From: Natrinema hispanicum
GTDB lineage: Archaea; Halobacteriota; Halobacteria; Halobacteriales; Natrialbaceae
DNA length: 64,000 nucleotides
Direction: 5' to 3'
Assembly: GCF_900111485.1 (NCBI RefSeq)
Contig: NZ_FOIC01000012.1
Span: 1-64,000 of the forward strand
In this document: piece by piece, positions 19,594 to 55,192 of the stretch
How positions within the stretch are numbered: position 1 is the stretch's first letter
How the letters are laid out: each line of letters begins with the position of its first letter
Translations under genes and position numbers: made by a program
The notes under the pieces: generated by a model
What the model saw: only the letters and a program-made list of their open reading frames with translations
Databases searched by the model: none
What the model was told of the DNA's origin: nothing

Positions 19594-19673
19594 ACGCCGG
19601 GGCTGTCGATGGTCCGCTCACGGTTGCACTGCGACCACTGAGCGAAGCGTCCCGCTCGAGCCACTAGTCCCGT

Positions 19674-20426
19674 CTAGTCGTCTCCCTCGATCGCAGCTTG
19701 TGCTTCGTCGAGCGTGAACGCGCCCTCGTACAACGCGCTGCCGACGACGACTGCGGCGGCACCGGTCTCTGCAAGCGCTCGGACGTCCGCGAGCGTCGCG
19801 ACGCCACCGCTGGCGATCACGGGGATATCTGTCGCGTCGACCAGTTCGCGGACGGGCTCGGTCGCGACGCCCTCGAGTTGGCCCTCGACGTCGACGTTCG
19901 TAAAGAGGATCGCGGCGGCCCCGAGGTCGTCGTAGCGTTCGGCGGCCTCGACCGGCGAAATCTCCGCTCCTTCGGTCCAGCCTTCGACGACGACTTCGCC
20001 GTCTTTCGCGTCGAGGCTGACGACGACGCTGTCGGGATATTCCTCGCTGATCTCGGCGACGATCTCGGGGTTCTCGACCGCCGCGGTGCCGAGGATGACC
20101 CGATCGACGCCGCGCTCAAGAAGATCGACAGCGTCGTCGGCGGTGCGGATCCCACCACCCAGTTGTGTCGGGACGCCGACGGCCTCGATCACCGCATCAA
20201 TGGCGTCGGCGTTCGCGCGCTCGCCCTCGAACGCGCCGTCGAGATCCACGAGATGCAGCGTCTCGGCACCGGCGTCGATCCACCGCTGGGCGGCCTCGAC
20301 GGGGTCGCCGTAGGTCTTTTCGGTGCCACGTTCCCCCTGAACGAGTTGGACGACCTCGCCGTCCTGAACGTCGACTGCCGGGATCACCTCGAACTCTTCG
20401 CGCGCGTCGTCGGCGTCGGTGTGCAT
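19674..20426 (-). CDS. hisA: Phosphoribosylformimino-5-aminoimidazole carboxamide ribotide isomerase
   Basis: A 250-residue TIM-barrel enzyme of histidine synthesis that isomerises ProFAR to PRFAR. Catalytic Asp in PAVDVQDGEVVQLVQGERG (about 15-33), LHLVDLDGAFEG, TQLGGGIRTADDAVDLLERGVDRVILGTAAVENP and the second phosphate loop ASGGVATLADVRAL are all present. Length and order are normal. I chose the ATG at 20426 because the 154 upstream in-frame residues overlap the divergent promoter and permease gene. The stop is TAG. It diverges from the SLC13 permease with 117 bases between starts. Confidence 0.95.
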   Translation of the reverse strand: MHTDADDAREEFEVIPAVDVQDGEVVQLVQGERGTEKTYGDPVEAAQRWIDAGAETLHLVDLDGAFEGERANADAIDAVIEAVGVPTQLGGGIRTADDAVDLLERGVDRVILGTAAVENPEIVAEISEEYPDSVVVSLDAKDGEVVVEGWTEGAEISPVEAAERYDDLGAAAILFTNVDVEGQLEGVATEPVRELVDATDIPVIASGGVATLADVRALAETGAAAVVVGSALYEGAFTLDEAQAAIEGDD

Positions 20427-20543
20427 ACTCGAGTGCGCGAGGCCGGCGCGAGTAAAGGCGACGGTTTCGCCGACCGCCATCGCCGCGACACTGTTCCTAC
20501 TCTCGACAGAATCGTTACAAGTGTGGTCGGTGTCGGTCGCCCT

Positions 20544-22406
20544 ATGCCGATGTCGGCGTGCGATTTTATCGCACAGACGACTGTCTCTCAACCCGACCTG
20601 ACGACGGACGCGCTCGTCGTCTTTGGCGTCGTCGGCCTCGCACTCGTGCTCTTTCTCACCGAGCGCCTGCCCATCGACGTGACTGCGATCCTGTTGATCG
20701 TGAGTTTGGTCGTGCTCGAGCCCTGGACGGGTGTCGATCCCGCGACCGGCATCTCGGGCTTTGCGAACGAGGCGACGATCACCGTGCTGGCGATGCTCAT
20801 ATTGAGCGGTGGCATCAGCCGAACTGGCCTCGTTCAGGAACTCGGCCGGCGGATGGCTGGGTTCGCGGGCGACAGCCTTCGCAGGCAACTGTTCGCGACC
20901 GTCGCCGCGACCGGCCCCGTGTCGGGGTTTTTGAATAACACGCCGGTAGTCGCCCTGCTGGTGCCGGTCGTCACAGACGTTGCGAACCGCGGGAACACGT
21001 CGCCGTCGAAGCTGCTCATCCCGCTGTCGTACGCCTCACAGATGGGCGGGATGCTCACGCTTATCGGCACCTCGACGAACATCCTCGCCAGCGACGTCAG
21101 CGCACGCCTTGGCTCTCAGTACCCCGAACTGCACCGATTCTCGATGTTCGAGTTCACGAAGCTCGGCGTGATCGTCGTCCTCGTCGGCTCGCTCTATCTG
21201 ATCTTCGTCGGGCACCGCCTGCTTCCTGAGCGCGTCCCGCCGCGGGCCGACTACCTCGAGGAGTACGACGTCGAAGATTACGTCGCCGACGTCGCCGTCG
21301 TACCGGGTTCCCCGCTGGTCGGCCAGACGGTCCGCGAGGCGACCGCCATCCTCGGGTCCGATGTCGACATCGTTCAGGTCGTCCACGACGAGGCCCGATC
21401 GGTCGCGCCCCGGCAGGCAACCCAACTGGCCGAAGGCGACGTCCTTGTCGTCCGGACCGACCGCGACGCTATCGCGACGCTCGAGGGCGTCGAAGGGGTC
21501 GAGCCGGTCGGTCGCGCAACCGCCGTCGACGACCTCGCAGCGCCGGCCGAGGCGGGCATCATCACGGAACTGGTCGTCTCGCTCGACTCGCGGCTCGTCG
21601 GCGAGCGGCTCGATCCCGAGGCCTTCCGCGAGGAGTTCAATGCGGCCGTCCTCGGCCTTCGCCACCATGGCGACCTCGTCGCTGACCGCATCGTCGGCAC
21701 GCGCCTCGACGTCGGTGACACGTTGCTCGTCCAGGTCCCGCCGGACACGCTCGACCGGCTTGCCCGCCGCGACGACGTGATCGTCGCGCGCGAGCCACCC
21801 CGACCCGAGTATCGCGCGGACAAGGCCCCGATCGCGGTCGCCATCATGATCGGCGTCGTCGCCGTCGCCGCTCTCGAACTCTACCCGATCCTCATCGCCG
21901 CGCTCGCCGGCGTCGTCGCGATGGTCGTCACCGGCGTCTTAGAGCCCAACGAACTCTACGACGCCGTCGAGTGGGACATCATCTTCTTGCTTGCTGGTGT
22001 GATTCCATTGGGGATCGCGCTCGAGAAGACCGGCGGCGCGGCGTATCTCGCCTGGCTGGTCGTCCAGTCCGCGGGGTTCCTGCCGACGATCGTCGTGCTG
22101 TGGCTGTTCTACGTTCTGACCGGGCTGCTCACGGAGGTCATCAGCAACAACGCCAGCGTCGTCCTCCTGCTCCCGGTCGCGGCGGCCGCGGCGACGGGCA
22201 TCGGTGCGAACCCGTTCGCGTTCGTGCTGGCGGTGACGTTCGCCGCGAGCACTGCCTTTCTCGGCCCGATCGGCTATCAGACGAACCTCTTCGTCTACGG
22301 CCCCGGCGGCTATCGCTTCAGCGACTACGCGCGGATCGGCGCGCCGCTCCAGCTCGTGTTGTCGATCGTCACCGTCCTCGGGATCGCGGTCTTCTGGGGC
22401 CTCTAA
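20544..22406 (+). CDS. SLC13-family permease with two TrkA-C domains
   Basis: A 620-residue transporter of the divalent anion:Na+ symporter (DASS) type. N-terminal helices (about 15-230) include ISGFANEATITVLAMLILSGGISRTGLV and the signature SYASQMGGMLTLIGTSTNILASD. Two cytoplasmic TrkA-C (RCK_C) domains lie at about 250-335 and 345-425 (TRLDVGDTLLVQVPPDTLDRL). A second membrane half (about 435-618) has LTEVISNNASVVLLLPVAAAAATGIGANPFAFVLA and GPIGYQTNLFVYGPGGYRFSDYARIG. Substrates in the family are sulfate or dicarboxylates; the choice is not visible. ATG 20544 and 20550 are both possible starts. Confidence 0.9.
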   Translation: MPMSACDFIAQTTVSQPDLTTDALVVFGVVGLALVLFLTERLPIDVTAILLIVSLVVLEPWTGVDPATGISGFANEATITVLAMLILSGGISRTGLVQELGRRMAGFAGDSLRRQLFATVAATGPVSGFLNNTPVVALLVPVVTDVANRGNTSPSKLLIPLSYASQMGGMLTLIGTSTNILASDVSARLGSQYPELHRFSMFEFTKLGVIVVLVGSLYLIFVGHRLLPERVPPRADYLEEYDVEDYVADVAVVPGSPLVGQTVREATAILGSDVDIVQVVHDEARSVAPRQATQLAEGDVLVVRTDRDAIATLEGVEGVEPVGRATAVDDLAAPAEAGIITELVVSLDSRLVGERLDPEAFREEFNAAVLGLRHHGDLVADRIVGTRLDVGDTLLVQVPPDTLDRLARRDDVIVAREPPRPEYRADKAPIAVAIMIGVVAVAALELYPILIAALAGVVAMVVTGVLEPNELYDAVEWDIIFLLAGVIPLGIALEKTGGAAYLAWLVVQSAGFLPTIVVLWLFYVLTGLLTEVISNNASVVLLLPVAAAAATGIGANPFAFVLAVTFAASTAFLGPIGYQTNLFVYGPGGYRFSDYARIGAPLQLVLSIVTVLGIAVFWGL

Positions 22407-42090: not shown

Positions 42091-42183
42091 ACTCGAGACG
42101 TTGGTCGTCCGAGCGATAGGTCTTTTGCCGCCGGGAGCGCGAGCGGCGAAAAATAGCGCGTGCGTCGCGTTCGTCGTCCGTCG

Positions 42184-43770
42184 TTAGTTCTGGCCGTTCA
42201 GCGTGATGTCGCTGACGCCGATGACACGCTCGTCGTCCTCGAGTTCCGCTTTCGCTTCTGCGGGAACCTCGCTGTCGACGTTGTAGACGGTCAGGGCCTC
42301 GCCGCCGATGGTCTCGCGGGCGTTGAACATACCGGCGATGTTGACGTCGTGGTTGCCCATCACGGAGCCGATGAGGCCGATGACGCCGGGTTCGTCGGTG
42401 TTGCGCGTGATGACCATCCGGCCGTGGGGGATGGCGTCGACGCGGTAGCCGTCGATGCGGACGATGCGTGGGTCGTCACCCGCAAAGAGGGTGCCGTCGA
42501 CGGACACGTCGTCGTCGTCGTTGCTGACGGTCACGGAGATCAGGCTCTGGAAGTCCTCGGCCTGGCGGGTCTTGGACTCGGTGACGTCGACGCCCCGGTC
42601 CTCGGCGATCTGCGGTGCGTTGACTGCGTTGACCTGCCACTCGAGGGGTTCGAAGACGCCCTTGAGTGCGCTTGCGGTGACGAACTCGACGTCTTCGTCG
42701 GCGATCTCGCCCTCGTAGACGACTTCGACGTCCTCGATGCGGCCCTCGAGCAGTTGCGCGGCGACCTTGCCGGCGGTTTCGGCGAGGTCGATGTAGGGCT
42801 CGACACGGGGGAACGCGCTCTCGTCGATCGAGGGGGCGTTCAGGGCGTTGGCGACCGGCTCGCCGGCGATTGCGGCGTTGACCTGCTCGGCGGTGGAGGT
42901 CGCGACGTTCTCCTGGGCGGCCTCCGTCGATGCGCCGAGGTGGGGCGTGACGATGACGTCGTCGTGCTCGAGCAGCGGCGAGTCCTCGGAGAGTGGCTCC
43001 TCGGCGAAGACGTCCAGTGCCGCGCCAGCAAGCGTGCCGTCCTCGACCTTGGCAGCGAGTGCGTCCTCCTGGATGATGCCGCCACGGCCGACGTTGACGA
43101 TGTAGCCGTCCTCGAGGAGGTCGAGTTCCTCTTCGCCGATCATGCCCTCCGTCTCGGGGGTCAGCGGCGTGTGGATGGTCAGGAAGTCAGCGCGCTCGAG
43201 ACATGGCTCGAAGTCGACAAGTTCGGCACCGAGGCGGCCGGCGCGCTCCTCGGAGATGTAGGGATCGAAGGCGACGAGGTCCATCCCGAGCGAGTCGAGC
43301 TTTTTGGCGACCTCTTGGCCGACGCGGCCGAGGCCGACGATGCCGAGGGTCTTGCCGTTGAGTTCGGCACCGAGGTAGTCGCTTTTGGCCCATTCGCCGT
43401 TTTTCAGGCGGATGTGTGCCTGTGGGATCGAGCGGGCGGCCGCGAACGTCATCGCGACGGTGTGCTCGGCGGCTGCGCGCACGTTGCCCTCGGGAGCGTT
43501 AGCGACGATGACACCTTCGTCCGTGGCGGCGTCGATGTCGATGTTGTCGACACCGATGCCCGCTCGACCGACGATAACCAGTTCCTCGGCGGCCGCGAGG
43601 ACCTCGTCGGTGACTTCGGTCCCGGAGCGAACGATGAGCCCGTTGGCGTCCGAGACTGCCTCGAGGAGGTCGTCTCCCTCGAGTTCGTAGCCCGTTTCGA
43701 CCTCGTGGCCGGCGTCTCTGAGTACGTCCAGACCCGCATCCGCGATCGGATCCGTGACGAGAACCTTCAT
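42184..43770 (-). CDS. serA: D-3-phosphoglycerate dehydrogenase
   Basis: A 528-residue NAD-dependent enzyme that starts serine synthesis by oxidising 3-phosphoglycerate. The nucleotide fold has LGIVGLGRVGQEVAKKLDSLGMDLVAFDPYIS (about 142-172); catalytic Arg, Glu and His are in NVGRGGIIQEDALAAKVEDGTLAGAALDVFAEEPL and VIVTPHLGASTEAAQENVA. An intervening domain (about 315-445) and a C-terminal ACT domain (about 452-525; MVITRNTDEPGVIGLIGSVMGNHDVNIAGMFN) make it the long type. The ATG at 43770 is chosen; a 97-residue extension upstream is unrelated. Divergent from the stress protein gene; serB-like lies close by. Confidence 0.95.
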   Translation of the reverse strand: MKVLVTDPIADAGLDVLRDAGHEVETGYELEGDDLLEAVSDANGLIVRSGTEVTDEVLAAAEELVIVGRAGIGVDNIDIDAATDEGVIVANAPEGNVRAAAEHTVAMTFAAARSIPQAHIRLKNGEWAKSDYLGAELNGKTLGIVGLGRVGQEVAKKLDSLGMDLVAFDPYISEERAGRLGAELVDFEPCLERADFLTIHTPLTPETEGMIGEEELDLLEDGYIVNVGRGGIIQEDALAAKVEDGTLAGAALDVFAEEPLSEDSPLLEHDDVIVTPHLGASTEAAQENVATSTAEQVNAAIAGEPVANALNAPSIDESAFPRVEPYIDLAETAGKVAAQLLEGRIEDVEVVYEGEIADEDVEFVTASALKGVFEPLEWQVNAVNAPQIAEDRGVDVTESKTRQAEDFQSLISVTVSNDDDDVSVDGTLFAGDDPRIVRIDGYRVDAIPHGRMVITRNTDEPGVIGLIGSVMGNHDVNIAGMFNARETIGGEALTVYNVDSEVPAEAKAELEDDERVIGVSDITLNGQN

Positions 43771-43899
43771 GTGCGAGCAAACCGTGCGGAGCACGTAAAC
43801 CCTTCCGTTGTCGCGCCCGGTGGCAAAATTTGTCTCCATTCTCTCGAATGTTGTGAGGTACCACCTACCATTATCCGGACGACGCACGTACGGTCGGGC

Positions 43900-44355
43900 A
43901 TGTACGAGCGCATCCTGTTGCCGACCGACGCGGCGGAGGGGACCGAACTCGCTATCGACCACGCCGTCGCCGTCGCCGATCACGCTGGGGCCGAGCTTCA
44001 CCTTCTCTATGTTGTCGACAGCGACGTCTACAGTTCCTACAGCGGCGACGAGTACGTCCACGAGTTCGAAGGGTTAGAGGCCGCCCTCGAGCAGGTCGGT
44101 GAAGCGGCCCTCGAGTCGGCCGCCGAGGCAGCCGCGGAGGCGGACGTCGAGACGACCACGGTCGTCAGACACGGCGATCCCCACAAGCAGATCCTCGAGT
44201 ACGCCGACGAGGCGGACGTCGACCTGCTTGTCATGGGCTCGAAAGAACGATCCGGTGAGTACCGCCAGCTGCTGGGTAGCGTCACGGATCGTGTCGCGCG
44301 GTTGGCTTCGCGGCCGGTGACGATCGTCAAGACGCCGGTCGACGGCGAGGAGTAG
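43900..44355 (+). CDS. Universal stress protein (UspA family)
   Basis: A 151-residue Rossmann-like protein beginning MYERILLPTDAAEGTELAIDHAV. The C-terminal ATP-binding pattern G-x2-G-x9-G-(S/T) is represented by LVMGSKERSGEYRQLLGSVTDRVARLASRPVTIVK, so it is probably an ATP-binding Usp. The exact stress or ligand is not visible. It shares a divergent promoter region with serA and precedes the HAD phosphatase by 62 bases on the same strand. Confidence 0.9.
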   Translation: MYERILLPTDAAEGTELAIDHAVAVADHAGAELHLLYVVDSDVYSSYSGDEYVHEFEGLEAALEQVGEAALESAAEAAAEADVETTTVVRHGDPHKQILEYADEADVDLLVMGSKERSGEYRQLLGSVTDRVARLASRPVTIVKTPVDGEE

Positions 44356-51153: not shown

Positions 51154-51573
51154 ATGCACTATCGCGCCGTCGAGACGACCGACGAGTACGTCGCCCGCCT
51201 CGAGACGGGTGCCGACTGGCGGGCCGAGATCGAGTCCCTCGCCGACGCGGTCGACGCCGATGCCGCCTGGTTTACCGCGCTCGGCGCGGTCCAGGACGCC
51301 GAACTGTGGTTCTACGATCAGGACGAGTGTGCGTACGAGCCGATCGAATTCGACGAGCCCCTCGAGGTCGCGAGCTGCGTCGGCAACGTCTCGCTGCTCG
51401 AGGACGAGCGCTTCGCGCACACCCACGTCGTCCTCTCCGGGCCCGACGGCAACGCGGTCGCCGGCCACCTGAACGAGGCGACGGTCTGGGCCGGCGAGGT
51501 CCACATGCGCGTCTTCGATGAGCCACTCGAGCGCGAACACGACGAGACGACCGACCTCGACCTCTGGCTCTGA
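51154..51573 (+). CDS. PPC/PCC-domain (DUF296) protein
   Basis: A 139-residue single-domain protein of the PPC family, a trimeric fold also found in plant AT-hook proteins. RFAHTHVVLSGPDGNAVAGHLNEATVWAGEVHMRVFDEPL (about 87-126) is the signature, with His residues that can form a metal site in the trimer. It is sometimes annotated as a DNA-binding protein; direct DNA binding is unproven. It ends one base before the polymerase start, so the two are one transcription unit. ATG at 51154. Confidence 0.9.
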   Translation: MHYRAVETTDEYVARLETGADWRAEIESLADAVDADAAWFTALGAVQDAELWFYDQDECAYEPIEFDEPLEVASCVGNVSLLEDERFAHTHVVLSGPDGNAVAGHLNEATVWAGEVHMRVFDEPLEREHDETTDLDLWL

Positions 51574-51574
51574 C

Positions 51575-54500
51575 ATGCGGGCGGAAGACGAACGCTACTT
51601 CGAACGGCTCGAGTCCCAGTTAGACGATGCGTTCGACGTGGCCGAGCGAGCCAAACGACGGGGTGGCGATCCGAAACCCGAAGTCGAGATCCCGACCGCA
51701 CGCGACATGGCCGACCGCGTCGAGAACATTCTGGGCATCGACGGCGTCGCCGAACGGGTCCGCGAACTCGAAGGCGAGATGAGCAGGGAAGAAGCTGCCC
51801 TCGAGCTCGCGGAAGATTTCGCCGAGGGCCGGGTCGGTGACTACGAGTCGAAAGCCGGTAAGGTCGAGGGGGCGGTTCGCACTGCGGTCGCTCTGCTGAC
51901 TGAAGGTGTCGTCGCCGCGCCGATCGAGGGGATCGACAAGGTCGAAATCCTCCAGAACGACGACGGCACCGAGTTCGTCAACGTCTACTACGCCGGCCCG
52001 ATTCGCTCTGCGGGTGGGACCGCACAGGCGCTGTCGGTACTCGTCGCCGACTACACCCGCGCGCTCGTGGGGATCGACCAGTACAAGGCTCGAGACGACG
52101 AGATCGAGCGCTACGCCGAGGAGATCTCGCTGTACGACAAGGAGACCGGCCTCCAGTACACGCCCAAGGACAAGGAGACGAAGTTCATCGCCGAGCACAT
52201 GCCGATCATGCTGGATGGAGAGGCCACCGGCGACGAGGAGGTCTCTGGCTTTCGCGACTTAGAGCGGGTCGACACCAACAGCGCCCGCGGTGGGATGTGT
52301 CTGGTCCTCGCGGAGGGGATCGCGCTGAAAGCGCCGAAGATCCAGCGCTACACCCGAAACCTGGATGAGGTCGACTGGCCGTGGCTGCAGGATCTCATCG
52401 ACGGGACCTACTACGACGACGCTGCGGATACGGACGACGAGGGGAGCGACACGGATGCGGACGCGGACGACGAGGGAGACGGCAACGAGGAAGACGCAGC
52501 CGCCGACGGAGACGATGCCGCGGACGACGAACCCGAGGGCCCCCCGCGCGTCGAGGAGTCGACGAAGTTCCTCCGCGATCTGATCGCCGGTCGGCCCGTC
52601 TTCTCTCATCCCTGTGCAGAGGGCGGCTTCCGGCTGCGCTACGGTCGGGCGCGCAACCACGGCTTCGCGACCGCCGGCGTCCATCCCGCTGCGATGCATC
52701 TGGTCGACGACTTCCTCGCGACGGGGACCCAGATCAAGACCGAACGCCCTGGGAAAGCCGCGGGCGTCGTCCCCGTCGACTCCATCGAGGGGCCGACCAT
52801 CAAACTCGCGAACGGCGACGTTCGGCGAATCGACGACCCCCAAGACGCCCTCGAGATCCGCAATGGTGTCGAGAAGATCCTCGATCTCGGCGAGTATCTC
52901 GTCAATTACGGCGAGTTCGTCGAAAACAATCACCCACTCGCGCCCGCGTCCTACACCTATGAGTGGTGGGTGCAGGATCTCGCGGCCGCCGGTGCGGACG
53001 TCCAGGCCTTCGAGGACGATCCCCGGATCGATCTCGAGTTCCCCGACGCCGAGGAGGCCCTCGAGTGGACCGCGGAATACGACGCCCCTCTCCATCCGGA
53101 GTATACGTACCTCTGGCACGACCTGTCCGTCGACGCCTTCTGTATGCTTGCCGAGGCCGTCGCTGACGGTCGGATTCGAGACGAGACGCTCATCCTCGAC
53201 TATACCGAGCCGGTCCGCGACGCGCTCGAGACGATCGTCATCGAACATCGCCAGCGCGAGAGCGAGGGCCACATCGAGATCGACGACTGGCGGCCGTTCG
53301 TCCACACGGTCGGCTGTGAACCCCGCCAGACCGTCGCCGACGGCGCGACGCTCGAGCCAGAGCAAGCGCCAACGGTCGAACTCGAGCGCACCTGGACTGA
53401 CGACGACCTCTCCGAACGCGCGCGGACGTGGGGACACGAGGCCGCGGGCGACAACGCCATCGAGGCGGTCAACGAGGTCGCTCCCTTCCAGGTTCGCGAG
53501 CGGTCCCCCACCCGGATCGGCAACCGGATGGGCCGCCCCGAGAAGTCAGAGCGCCGTGACCTGAGTCCGCCCGTCCACACGCTGTTCCCGATCGGCGAGG
53601 CCGGTGGCGCACAGCGTAACGTCGCCGACGCCGCCAAACACGCCGAGACGATGTCGGACACCCCCGGCGTCGTCGAACTCCAGATCGGCCGCCAGTGCTG
53701 TGAGACCTGTGGCACGGAGACGTTCAAAAACCGCTGTCCCGACTGCAACGAGCGGACGACGCCGGACTATCGCTGTCCTGACTGCGACCAGCGCCTCGAG
53801 CCCGACGACGCCGGCCGCGTCGAGTGCGATCGCTGCGAGCGCGAGGGAACCTGCGTCGAGACCCGCGAGATCGACGTTCACGATGAGTTCCGGAGCGCCC
53901 TCGAGTCGGTCGGCGAACGCGAGAACGCCTTCGAGATCCTGAAAGGTGTCAAGGGACTCTCCTCGCAGAACAAGGTCCCCGAACCGATCGAGAAAGGGAT
54001 CCTGCGGGCGAAACACGACGTGAGCGCGTTCAAAGACGGCACCGTTCGCTACGACATGACCGACCTGCCGGTCACGTCAGTTCGGGCAAGCGAACTCGAC
54101 GTCGACGTCGGCCAGCTCCAGGCCCTTGGCTACGAGGAAGACATCCACGGCGAACCGCTCACTCACGAGGACCAGCTGGTCGAACTCAAAGTGCAGGACA
54201 TCGTCCTTTCCGACGGTGCGGCCGAGCACATGCTCCAGACCGCCGACTTCATCGACGACCTCTTGGCACAGTATTACGGCCTCGAGCCGTTTTACGAGTT
54301 CGAGGACCGCCAGGACCTCGTCGGTGAACTCGTCTTCGGGATGGCACCGCACACGTCGGCAGCAACTGTCGGACGTGTGATTGGCTTTACGAGCGCGGCG
54401 GTCGGATACGCGCATCCGTACTTTCACGCCGCGAAACGAAGGAACTGTGACGGTGACGAAGATTGCGTGATGCTGCTTCTCGACGGACTTCTCAACTTCA

Positions 54501-55192
54501 GTAAGTCTTTTCTGCCAAACCAGCGCGGGGGGAAGATGGACGCCCCGCTGGTCATGTCCTCGCGGATCGACCCCTCCGAGATCGACGACGAGGCCCACAA
54601 CATGGACGTCGTCTCCCAGTACCCCCGCGAGTTCTACCTCGCGACCCGCGAGCAGGCCGACCCCGAGGACGTCGACGTCGAGATCGCCGAGGACACGCTC
54701 GGCACCGACACCGAGTACACTGGCTTCGAACACACTCACGACACCACCGACATCGCGATGGGCCCCGATCTCTCGGCGTACAAGACGCTGGGCTCGATGA
54801 TGGACAAGATGGACGCCCAACTCGAGCTCTCACGGAAGCTCCGGGCGGTCGACGAGACCGACGTCGCCGAGCGGGTTATCGAGTACCACTTCCTGCCGGA
54901 CCTGATCGGGAACCTGCGGGCCTTCTCACGTCAGGAGACGCGGTGTCTCGACTGCGGCGAGAAGTTCCGTCGGATGCCCCTGACCGGCGACTGTCGCGAG
55001 TGTGGCGGCCGCGTCAATCTCACCGTCCACAAGGGCTCGGTCAACAAGTACATGCAGACCGCGATTCAGGTCGCCGAGGAGTACGACTGTCGCGACTACA
55101 CGAAACAGCGACTCGAGGTCCTCGAACGGTCGCTCGAGAGTATTTTCGAAAATGACAAGAACAAGCAAAGCGGGATCGAGGACTTCATGTGA
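51575..55192 (+). CDS. polC: DNA polymerase D large subunit DP2
   Basis: A 1205-residue catalytic subunit of the euryarchaeal replicative polymerase. The N-terminal region has FVNVYYAGPIRSAGGTAQALSVLVADY (about 143-168). A haloarchaeal acidic insertion lies at about 280-330. A Cys-rich zinc region follows at about 705-770 (CCETCGTETFKNRCPDC, YRCPDCDQ). The active site motif is NCDGDED at 957-963, its Asp residues 959 and 961 matching the catalytic pair known from Pyrococcus. A C-terminal zinc motif (CLDCGEKFRRMPLTGDCRECGG) ends near 1145, and the tail QSGIEDFM-like end may bind PCNA. No intein is present. The codons around 929-981 differ sharply from the rest. Confidence 0.96.
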   Translation: MRAEDERYFERLESQLDDAFDVAERAKRRGGDPKPEVEIPTARDMADRVENILGIDGVAERVRELEGEMSREEAALELAEDFAEGRVGDYESKAGKVEGAVRTAVALLTEGVVAAPIEGIDKVEILQNDDGTEFVNVYYAGPIRSAGGTAQALSVLVADYTRALVGIDQYKARDDEIERYAEEISLYDKETGLQYTPKDKETKFIAEHMPIMLDGEATGDEEVSGFRDLERVDTNSARGGMCLVLAEGIALKAPKIQRYTRNLDEVDWPWLQDLIDGTYYDDAADTDDEGSDTDADADDEGDGNEEDAAADGDDAADDEPEGPPRVEESTKFLRDLIAGRPVFSHPCAEGGFRLRYGRARNHGFATAGVHPAAMHLVDDFLATGTQIKTERPGKAAGVVPVDSIEGPTIKLANGDVRRIDDPQDALEIRNGVEKILDLGEYLVNYGEFVENNHPLAPASYTYEWWVQDLAAAGADVQAFEDDPRIDLEFPDAEEALEWTAEYDAPLHPEYTYLWHDLSVDAFCMLAEAVADGRIRDETLILDYTEPVRDALETIVIEHRQRESEGHIEIDDWRPFVHTVGCEPRQTVADGATLEPEQAPTVELERTWTDDDLSERARTWGHEAAGDNAIEAVNEVAPFQVRERSPTRIGNRMGRPEKSERRDLSPPVHTLFPIGEAGGAQRNVADAAKHAETMSDTPGVVELQIGRQCCETCGTETFKNRCPDCNERTTPDYRCPDCDQRLEPDDAGRVECDRCEREGTCVETREIDVHDEFRSALESVGERENAFEILKGVKGLSSQNKVPEPIEKGILRAKHDVSAFKDGTVRYDMTDLPVTSVRASELDVDVGQLQALGYEEDIHGEPLTHEDQLVELKVQDIVLSDGAAEHMLQTADFIDDLLAQYYGLEPFYEFEDRQDLVGELVFGMAPHTSAATVGRVIGFTSAAVGYAHPYFHAAKRRNCDGDEDCVMLLLDGLLNFSKSFLPNQRGGKMDAPLVMSSRIDPSEIDDEAHNMDVVSQYPREFYLATREQADPEDVDVEIAEDTLGTDTEYTGFEHTHDTTDIAMGPDLSAYKTLGSMMDKMDAQLELSRKLRAVDETDVAERVIEYHFLPDLIGNLRAFSRQETRCLDCGEKFRRMPLTGDCRECGGRVNLTVHKGSVNKYMQTAIQVAEEYDCRDYTKQRLEVLERSLESIFENDKNKQSGIEDFM

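Follow-up and report, generated by a model that had tools for sequence, protein, structure and literature searches.

A low-GC3 codon patch at an empty intein site in the polymerase D gene of Natrinema hispanicum: a probable scar of intein homing

In the gene for the DNA polymerase D large subunit (DP2, PolC) of Natrinema hispanicum, a patch of codons rich in A or T endings surrounds an intein insertion point that is empty in this genome and occupied in several relatives. We regard this patch as probably a co-conversion scar, i.e., the result of recurrent exchange with diverged relatives that was stimulated by homing endonucleases and included alleles that are now intein-free. The observations behind this reading are the position and extent of the patch, its excess of synonymous divergence, linked codon blocks with the weakest linkage around the insertion point, and the recurrence of similar footprints at the intein sites of other genes. 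The trigger would be the homing endonuclease of the inteins at the pol-IIa site (and at pol-IIb, 87 bp downstream), which would cut an empty DP2 gene at or near the insertion point, after which the break would be repaired from a homologous allele, possibly that of another species, and ~30–35 codons (roughly 100 bp) on each side would be overwritten, with or without the intein. If invasion, loss, and exchange have followed one another repeatedly across the haloarchaea, both flanks would depart from the history of the host and intein-free alleles would be scarred as well, presumably through past or abortive homing.

The patch and the two insertion points in DP2

The DP2 gene is located on the forward strand at positions 51518–55192 of the window, which is the whole stretch of 64,000 nucleotides that was analyzed. 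Its frame of 1224 aa is open throughout, with an unbroken DP2 match (Pfam PF03833, PF24844, and PF24846; NCBIfam TIGR00354 and PRK04023), and this allele is free of inteins, as the original prediction had stated. The low-GC3 patch (forward strand, 54359–54517, codons 948–1000) has 23 of its 53 codons ending in A or T (A/T3 codons), and a recount of three successive 53-codon stretches returned exactly the predicted values (8 before, 23 in the patch, 0 after), with a gene-wide share of 17.2% (210/1224). This is the top value among all 53-codon windows of DP2; of 5000 shuffles of synonymous codons within the gene, 0 reached 23 at the place of the patch and 13 did so at any position. Throughout the 64 kb, 69 of the 13,710 53-codon windows taken from 45 GC3-rich ORFs reach 23, all of them confined to four ORFs. 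Since 4 of these 45 ORFs contain a stretch of at least 23, composition alone would not mark the patch out: its count is uncommon but not unique in the window, and what is unusual is that one flank drops to 0. Two further sharp A/T3-rich stretches were noticed, one in a universal-stress-domain protein (42157–44352, codon ~519, 24/53) and another in a CitMHS-type transporter (19668–22403, codon ~249, 22/53), each with ~9–10 such codons on either side.

The patch is centered on the pol-IIa insertion point (forward strand, 54445–54446), which lies between Asn976 and Cys977 (TGT, 54446–54448), is empty here, and is exactly occupied in relatives by inteins of 177–515 aa. The predicted centering on the NCDGDED motif was correct in position, but the residues are 976–982 and not 957–963, a shift of 19. 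The placement of an intein site at the Cys of this motif was right: residue 977 is the break point in two NCBIfam models of DP2 (PRK14714 and PRK14715), and 5 of the 29 Natrinema genomes carry inteins exactly before Cys977 (180, 494, 494, 508, and 508 aa). The second insertion point, pol-IIb (forward strand, 54532–54533, before Lys1006, codon +29), is also empty here and is occupied in six relatives (L087, L091, L093, L094, L104, and L105) by inteins of 515–517 aa with the junctions GG^S...HN^SMDAP. In the alleles invaded at pol-IIb the first downstream residue is Ser, in empty alleles mostly Lys, and this Ser is probably co-converted, as has been described for a residue at MCM-d (see below). 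The pol-IIa and pol-IIb alleles of Halobacteria were catalogued by Soucy et al. 2014 (PMC4071816), in whose listing 75 halobacterial pol-IIa inteins are found. Gene and insertion points are those considered here and the genus is among the named carriers; that study worked from intein presence and intein trees, and flanking synonymous sites are not described in the parts of it that were consulted. The genome of N. hispanicum itself has an MCM gene (G000:C50:48865-50949) in which an intein of 472 aa sits at Walker A (GDPGTGK^), thus an intein-free DP2 coexists with a large intein elsewhere in the same genome.

Synonymous divergence and the spread of the patch

Between relatives, the codons from about −32 to +35 around the pol-IIa site have an elevated synonymous diversity, in intein-free and intein-bearing genes alike, and the profiles drop sharply past +39, which places the whole footprint at 54350–54553 of the forward strand (codons −32 to +35 around Cys977). 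Measured over 41 codons, the maximum of synonymous diversity in DP2 lies at +14/+16 from the insertion point in the genus and the family and at −5 in other families, and the A/T3 maximum at −9/−6. In 21 independent close pairs compared over −230 to +110 (the duplicate genomes L216, L228, and L230 being left out), synonymous divergence amounts to 0.322 within ~35 codons of the site and to 0.096 outside, i.e., 418 of 1298 patch codons vs. 403 of 4210 flank codons differ synonymously (odds ratio 4.5, p = 5e−78), with a rise from about −48 and a drop at +40. The 13 pairs of unlike intein state (for instance L016, without intein, and L031, with intein, which differ in 29/65 patch and 17/214 flank codons) are as divergent in the patch as the 8 intein-free pairs (0.323 vs. 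0.320). At a given flank divergence, the divergence of the patch is uneven among the 21 pairs (chi-square 34.9, 20 df, p = 0.02), as would be expected from episodic replacement. Close relatives are therefore separated by a cluster of differences that adjoins the insertion point, one of the features expected of a co-conversion tract.

The patch was present in all 37 DP2 genes first compared (29 from the genus and 8 further ones from the family), with or without inteins, at 12–24 A/T3 codons per 53. Class-wide it forms a mosaic: of 111 haloarchaeal DP2 genes, 79 have an A/T3 excess > 0.10, namely 56 of the 68 without an intein, 21 of the 29 with a large intein, and 2 of the 14 with a mini-intein. 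The 111 genes remained out of 115 after exclusion of L076, L080, L104, and L105 (A/T-rich genomes or a pol-IIb intein in the flank), and L058 and L067 were left out because the motif was not found in the chosen ORF. The patch is carried by 30 of 48 named intein-free loci and is absent from some Halobacteria genes (e.g., L056, L070, and L073). In Halorubrum (30 of 52 genus genomes, some large-intein loci of which stop inside the intein and miss the right side) the flanks have 2–11% A/T3 and most patches 20–50%, mini-intein alleles included. The small A/T3 excess of mini-intein alleles in the class sample counts against the co-conversion reading, yet the mini-intein alleles of Halorubrum keep the patch.

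This spread changes the picture from which the analysis started. The patch had been proposed to be a conversion tract left by the gain and loss of an intein, an idea against which the same low-GC3 patch in all haloarchaeal DP2 genes, distant intein-free ones included, was to count; such a distribution was largely what emerged, apart from the genes that lack the patch. A single gain and loss was dropped because the patch is common to all of the first genes and to most of the class, and a one-event conversion private to N. hispanicum is not supported, given the relatives that carry the same patch. The location at the pol-IIa site held, and so did the behavior as conversion from diverged relatives.

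The A/T3-rich codons coincide partly by position between Natrialbaceae and Halorubrum (r = 0.74, n = 53 codons), which site-specific selection could produce too. Selection on the nucleotides themselves, whether for slow codons that assist folding of the catalytic site, for an RNA or DNA element or for a small overlapping gene, could keep A/T endings in place and would agree with codons that are nearly fixed among 60 Natrialbaceae and 24 Halorubrum genes, i.e., CAT at His-11 (56/60 and 22/24), CCG at Pro-10 (59/60 and 24/24), and ACT at Thr-27 (56/60 and 21/24). However, synonymous diversity at the patch is the highest and not the lowest, for which reason nucleotide constraint was dropped as the main cause; several Halobacteria do without the patch, and the footprints in PolB, MCM, and RFC described below occur at intein sites only. 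In addition, 40 intein-free DP2 genes of non-haloarchaeal Halobacteriota (methanogen side) with the same motif have no A/T3 or diversity peak, a control that is near synonymous saturation (0.57) and informative mainly for A/T3. Altogether, we hold nucleotide selection to be an improbable explanation of the footprint. As for the A/T richness itself, codons of this kind at fixed positions that are shared between families would still allow for selection or for one A/T-rich source in common. L076 and L080, both A/T-rich haloarchaeal genes, make unlikely sources of the patch, as 24/50 and 15/48 of their codons equal the family consensus, as in controls. At Arg codon −24 (54374–54376), where CGT is used here, the rare AGA is the commonest codon in the same Natrialbaceae (29) and Halorubrum (18) genes.

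With regard to the low GC3, co-conversion would account for it if the exchanged tract escaped long residence in any one host. Mean A/T3 is 0.31 in inteins and 0.13 in genes, which agrees with a tract that stays only briefly in any host, as the intein does.

Import of linked blocks versus mutation in place

Repeated cutting by the endonuclease followed by error-prone, A/T-biased repair could create a local hotspot without any import, and would explain the centering on intein sites, the A/T3 excess, and the raised divergence in intein-free alleles. The kind of changes seen in close pairs argues against it. Switches between TCN and AGY codons of Ser were counted in 6 of 68 patch vs. 1 of 159 flank comparisons (p = 0.003), a rate as high as between distant flanks (1503/18927), and multi-base codon changes make up 31 of 418 differences in the patch vs. 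13 of 403 in the flanks. In the pair L061/L063 all 10 third-position differences between A/T and G/C run in one direction, on one side of the site only, a coordinated reversal, while in L014/L033 blocks of amino acids are altered together.

Induced mutation is equally at odds with half-tracts that are common to distant hosts, also of different families, and end at the insertion point, on the left in L060/L068, L119/L231, L037/L357, and L089/L351, and on the right in L016/L020 and L370/L371. For instance, L060 and L068 differ in 3/31 codons on the left (with 11 common A/T3 codons), in 11/29 on the right, and in 30/134 of the flank, and Haloarcula salina L370 differs from Halarchaeum L371 in 17/31 on the left, 2/26 on the right, and 44/117 of the flank. 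The codons on each side are also linked, with low linkage around the site: beyond host distance (n = 179), adjacent 12-codon blocks reach 0.18–0.24 within either side and 0.07 across the insertion point, values upstream of −60 are mostly ≤ 0, and linkage is ~0 after column shuffling. Under control for A/T3 the linkage persists, with right-hand values down to 0.05–0.13 and a minimum that broadens to 0..+8; a clear dip at the insertion point was not seen in the 52 intein-bearing alleles alone. This block scan supersedes a weak correlation of left and right 32-codon distances (partial 0.10 and not significant in the genus, 0.15 and 0.18 elsewhere), which some control windows equal. Taken together, the Ser switches, the half-tracts, and the block linkage favor import over point mutation, and linked blocks with shared half-tracts are the form in which import is expected to appear. 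The mutational explanation is already weakened, and we give it only a small chance of being correct.

The presumed import was not traced back to a single donor or element. A near-identical donor of the whole tract (distance ≤ 0.14) was found in 0 of 15,350 distant pairs, 23 identical sequences having been left out of the search. In the 17 large-intein alleles of the family, the correlation of local with host distance is ~0 at the patch and mostly 0.3–0.7 elsewhere in the gene, so the patch is losing the signal of its host. After correction for host distance, patch distance is likewise unrelated to that of the inteins (partial r 0.03, 29 large inteins), which gives no support to tract and intein as a lasting travelling pair; as the tract does not follow the history of the element, we describe it as a scar of repeated exchange and not as the tract of one identified intein. 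Patch distances between families are over-dispersed, a signal that is confounded with overall A/T3 and appears in weaker form in controls too.

Separate trees for patch and flanks had been suggested as a check in the original prediction. The patch does reject the tree obtained from the remainder of DP2 (AU test, self-chosen window trees), but so do all 14 DP2 windows, the patch having the largest delta lnL (115.6, the next being 93.9); since every window rejects, topology tests say nothing special about the patch. The same 14 rejections, together with the wide recombination of haloarchaea, would be in line with ordinary homologous exchange that is independent of inteins and merely commoner in strongly conserved coding blocks. 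Such exchange should raise other conserved blocks as well, but those of AlaRS, RpoB', and RIR1 are flat, there is no rise in equally conserved stretches of DP2 (codons −140 to −125 and +40 to +53), and MCM and RFC peak only at the Walker motifs that carry inteins. Of the alternatives considered, we find this one the least probable.

Other intein sites, known homing systems and implications

The footprint expected from co-conversion recurs in other Natrinema genes with inteins. In PolB, the 41-codon synonymous peak is at codon 659, between the intein at 632 and the YGDTDS motif, a second polB intein site in the literature that is not occupied in the loci used here. MCM has its 41-codon synonymous peak at 344, with an intein after 336, and a bump at 391–405, with an intein at 401. 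For RFC a peak was predicted before testing and was located at codon 90, the intein being at the Walker A motif GPAGTGK^T. The MCM and RFC profiles stem mostly from intein-free alleles, as the intein-bearing loci are cut by locus ends. Close pairs differ in 88/299 site vs. 149/1312 flank codons in PolB (3 pairs) and in 75/361 vs. 177/1631 in MCM (5 pairs); over all MCM sequences, the A/T3 maximum is at the N-terminus, away from the intein site. Profiles were flat, with no peak, in AlaRS (10 close pairs) and RpoB' (8 close pairs), and the RIR1 site, where 2 of 28 genes have inteins and these are of 150 aa only, has no peak either (47/603 vs. 576/7576, 9 pairs). Elsewhere in RIR1, codons ~106–120 (28 Natrinema genes, L251 numbering) have a diversity of 0.42 vs. 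0.22 expected and an A/T3 of 0.27, with no intein seen, and in RFC minor rises of synonymous diversity occur at codons 211–225 and 316–330 (L423–L449), at a distance from Walker A, the site that is occupied.

The polB intein of Haloferax has been demonstrated experimentally to home by gene conversion, for which it needs flanking homology (PMC3024317), and the endonucleases of MCM inteins cleave target sites from further species of Haloferax (PMC3024317, PMC10643990). As in our proposal, the endonuclease there drives gene conversion into homologous alleles, and for MCM-d a flanking change from Pro to Ser was co-converted (PMC10643990, PMC3024317). These reports deal with laboratory homing or single residues, and the parts consulted hold no class-wide synonymous footprint in empty alleles. 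A similar pattern is found in the tract of the angiosperm mitochondrial cox1 group I intron (PMC3192709), where runs of synonymous third-position changes lie beside a homing insertion site and, according to the parts of that paper considered here, occasionally persist when the element has been lost. That tract is one-sided, minimally 3–21 bp and longer in some lineages, and is diagnostic of intron presence, whereas the haloarchaeal scar extends ~100 bp to both sides, is equally strong in empty and occupied alleles, affects several nuclear-type replication genes of archaea, and differs in base composition. Co-conversion at homing elements is thus already known, and the class-wide synonymous scar in empty alleles would be the new part; no paper in the mostly open-access literature searched deals with such a footprint at the intein sites of haloarchaea.

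With somewhat more doubt than confidence, we suggest that, wherever an intein site is subject to active homing, the ~100 bp to its left and right form a moving gene pool common to the haloarchaea, which would pass from one genus or family to another more often than other parts of the gene, would be ill-adapted to the codons of any host (hence A/T-rich), and would persist without inteins, in which case codon scans of intein-free genomes would reveal past endonuclease activity, including sites that are as yet unknown. An old question on the persistence of homing elements is whether an empty intein site was never invaded, was cured, or was cut and repaired, and a scar in empty alleles would, if our reading is true, make their invasion history testable from sequence alone. 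In that case replication genes of different families would have their most conserved codons rewritten by selfish elements with the protein unchanged, and trees and codon statistics from such conserved blocks can mislead. The traffic of inteins may therefore be readable even in genes that have no intein.
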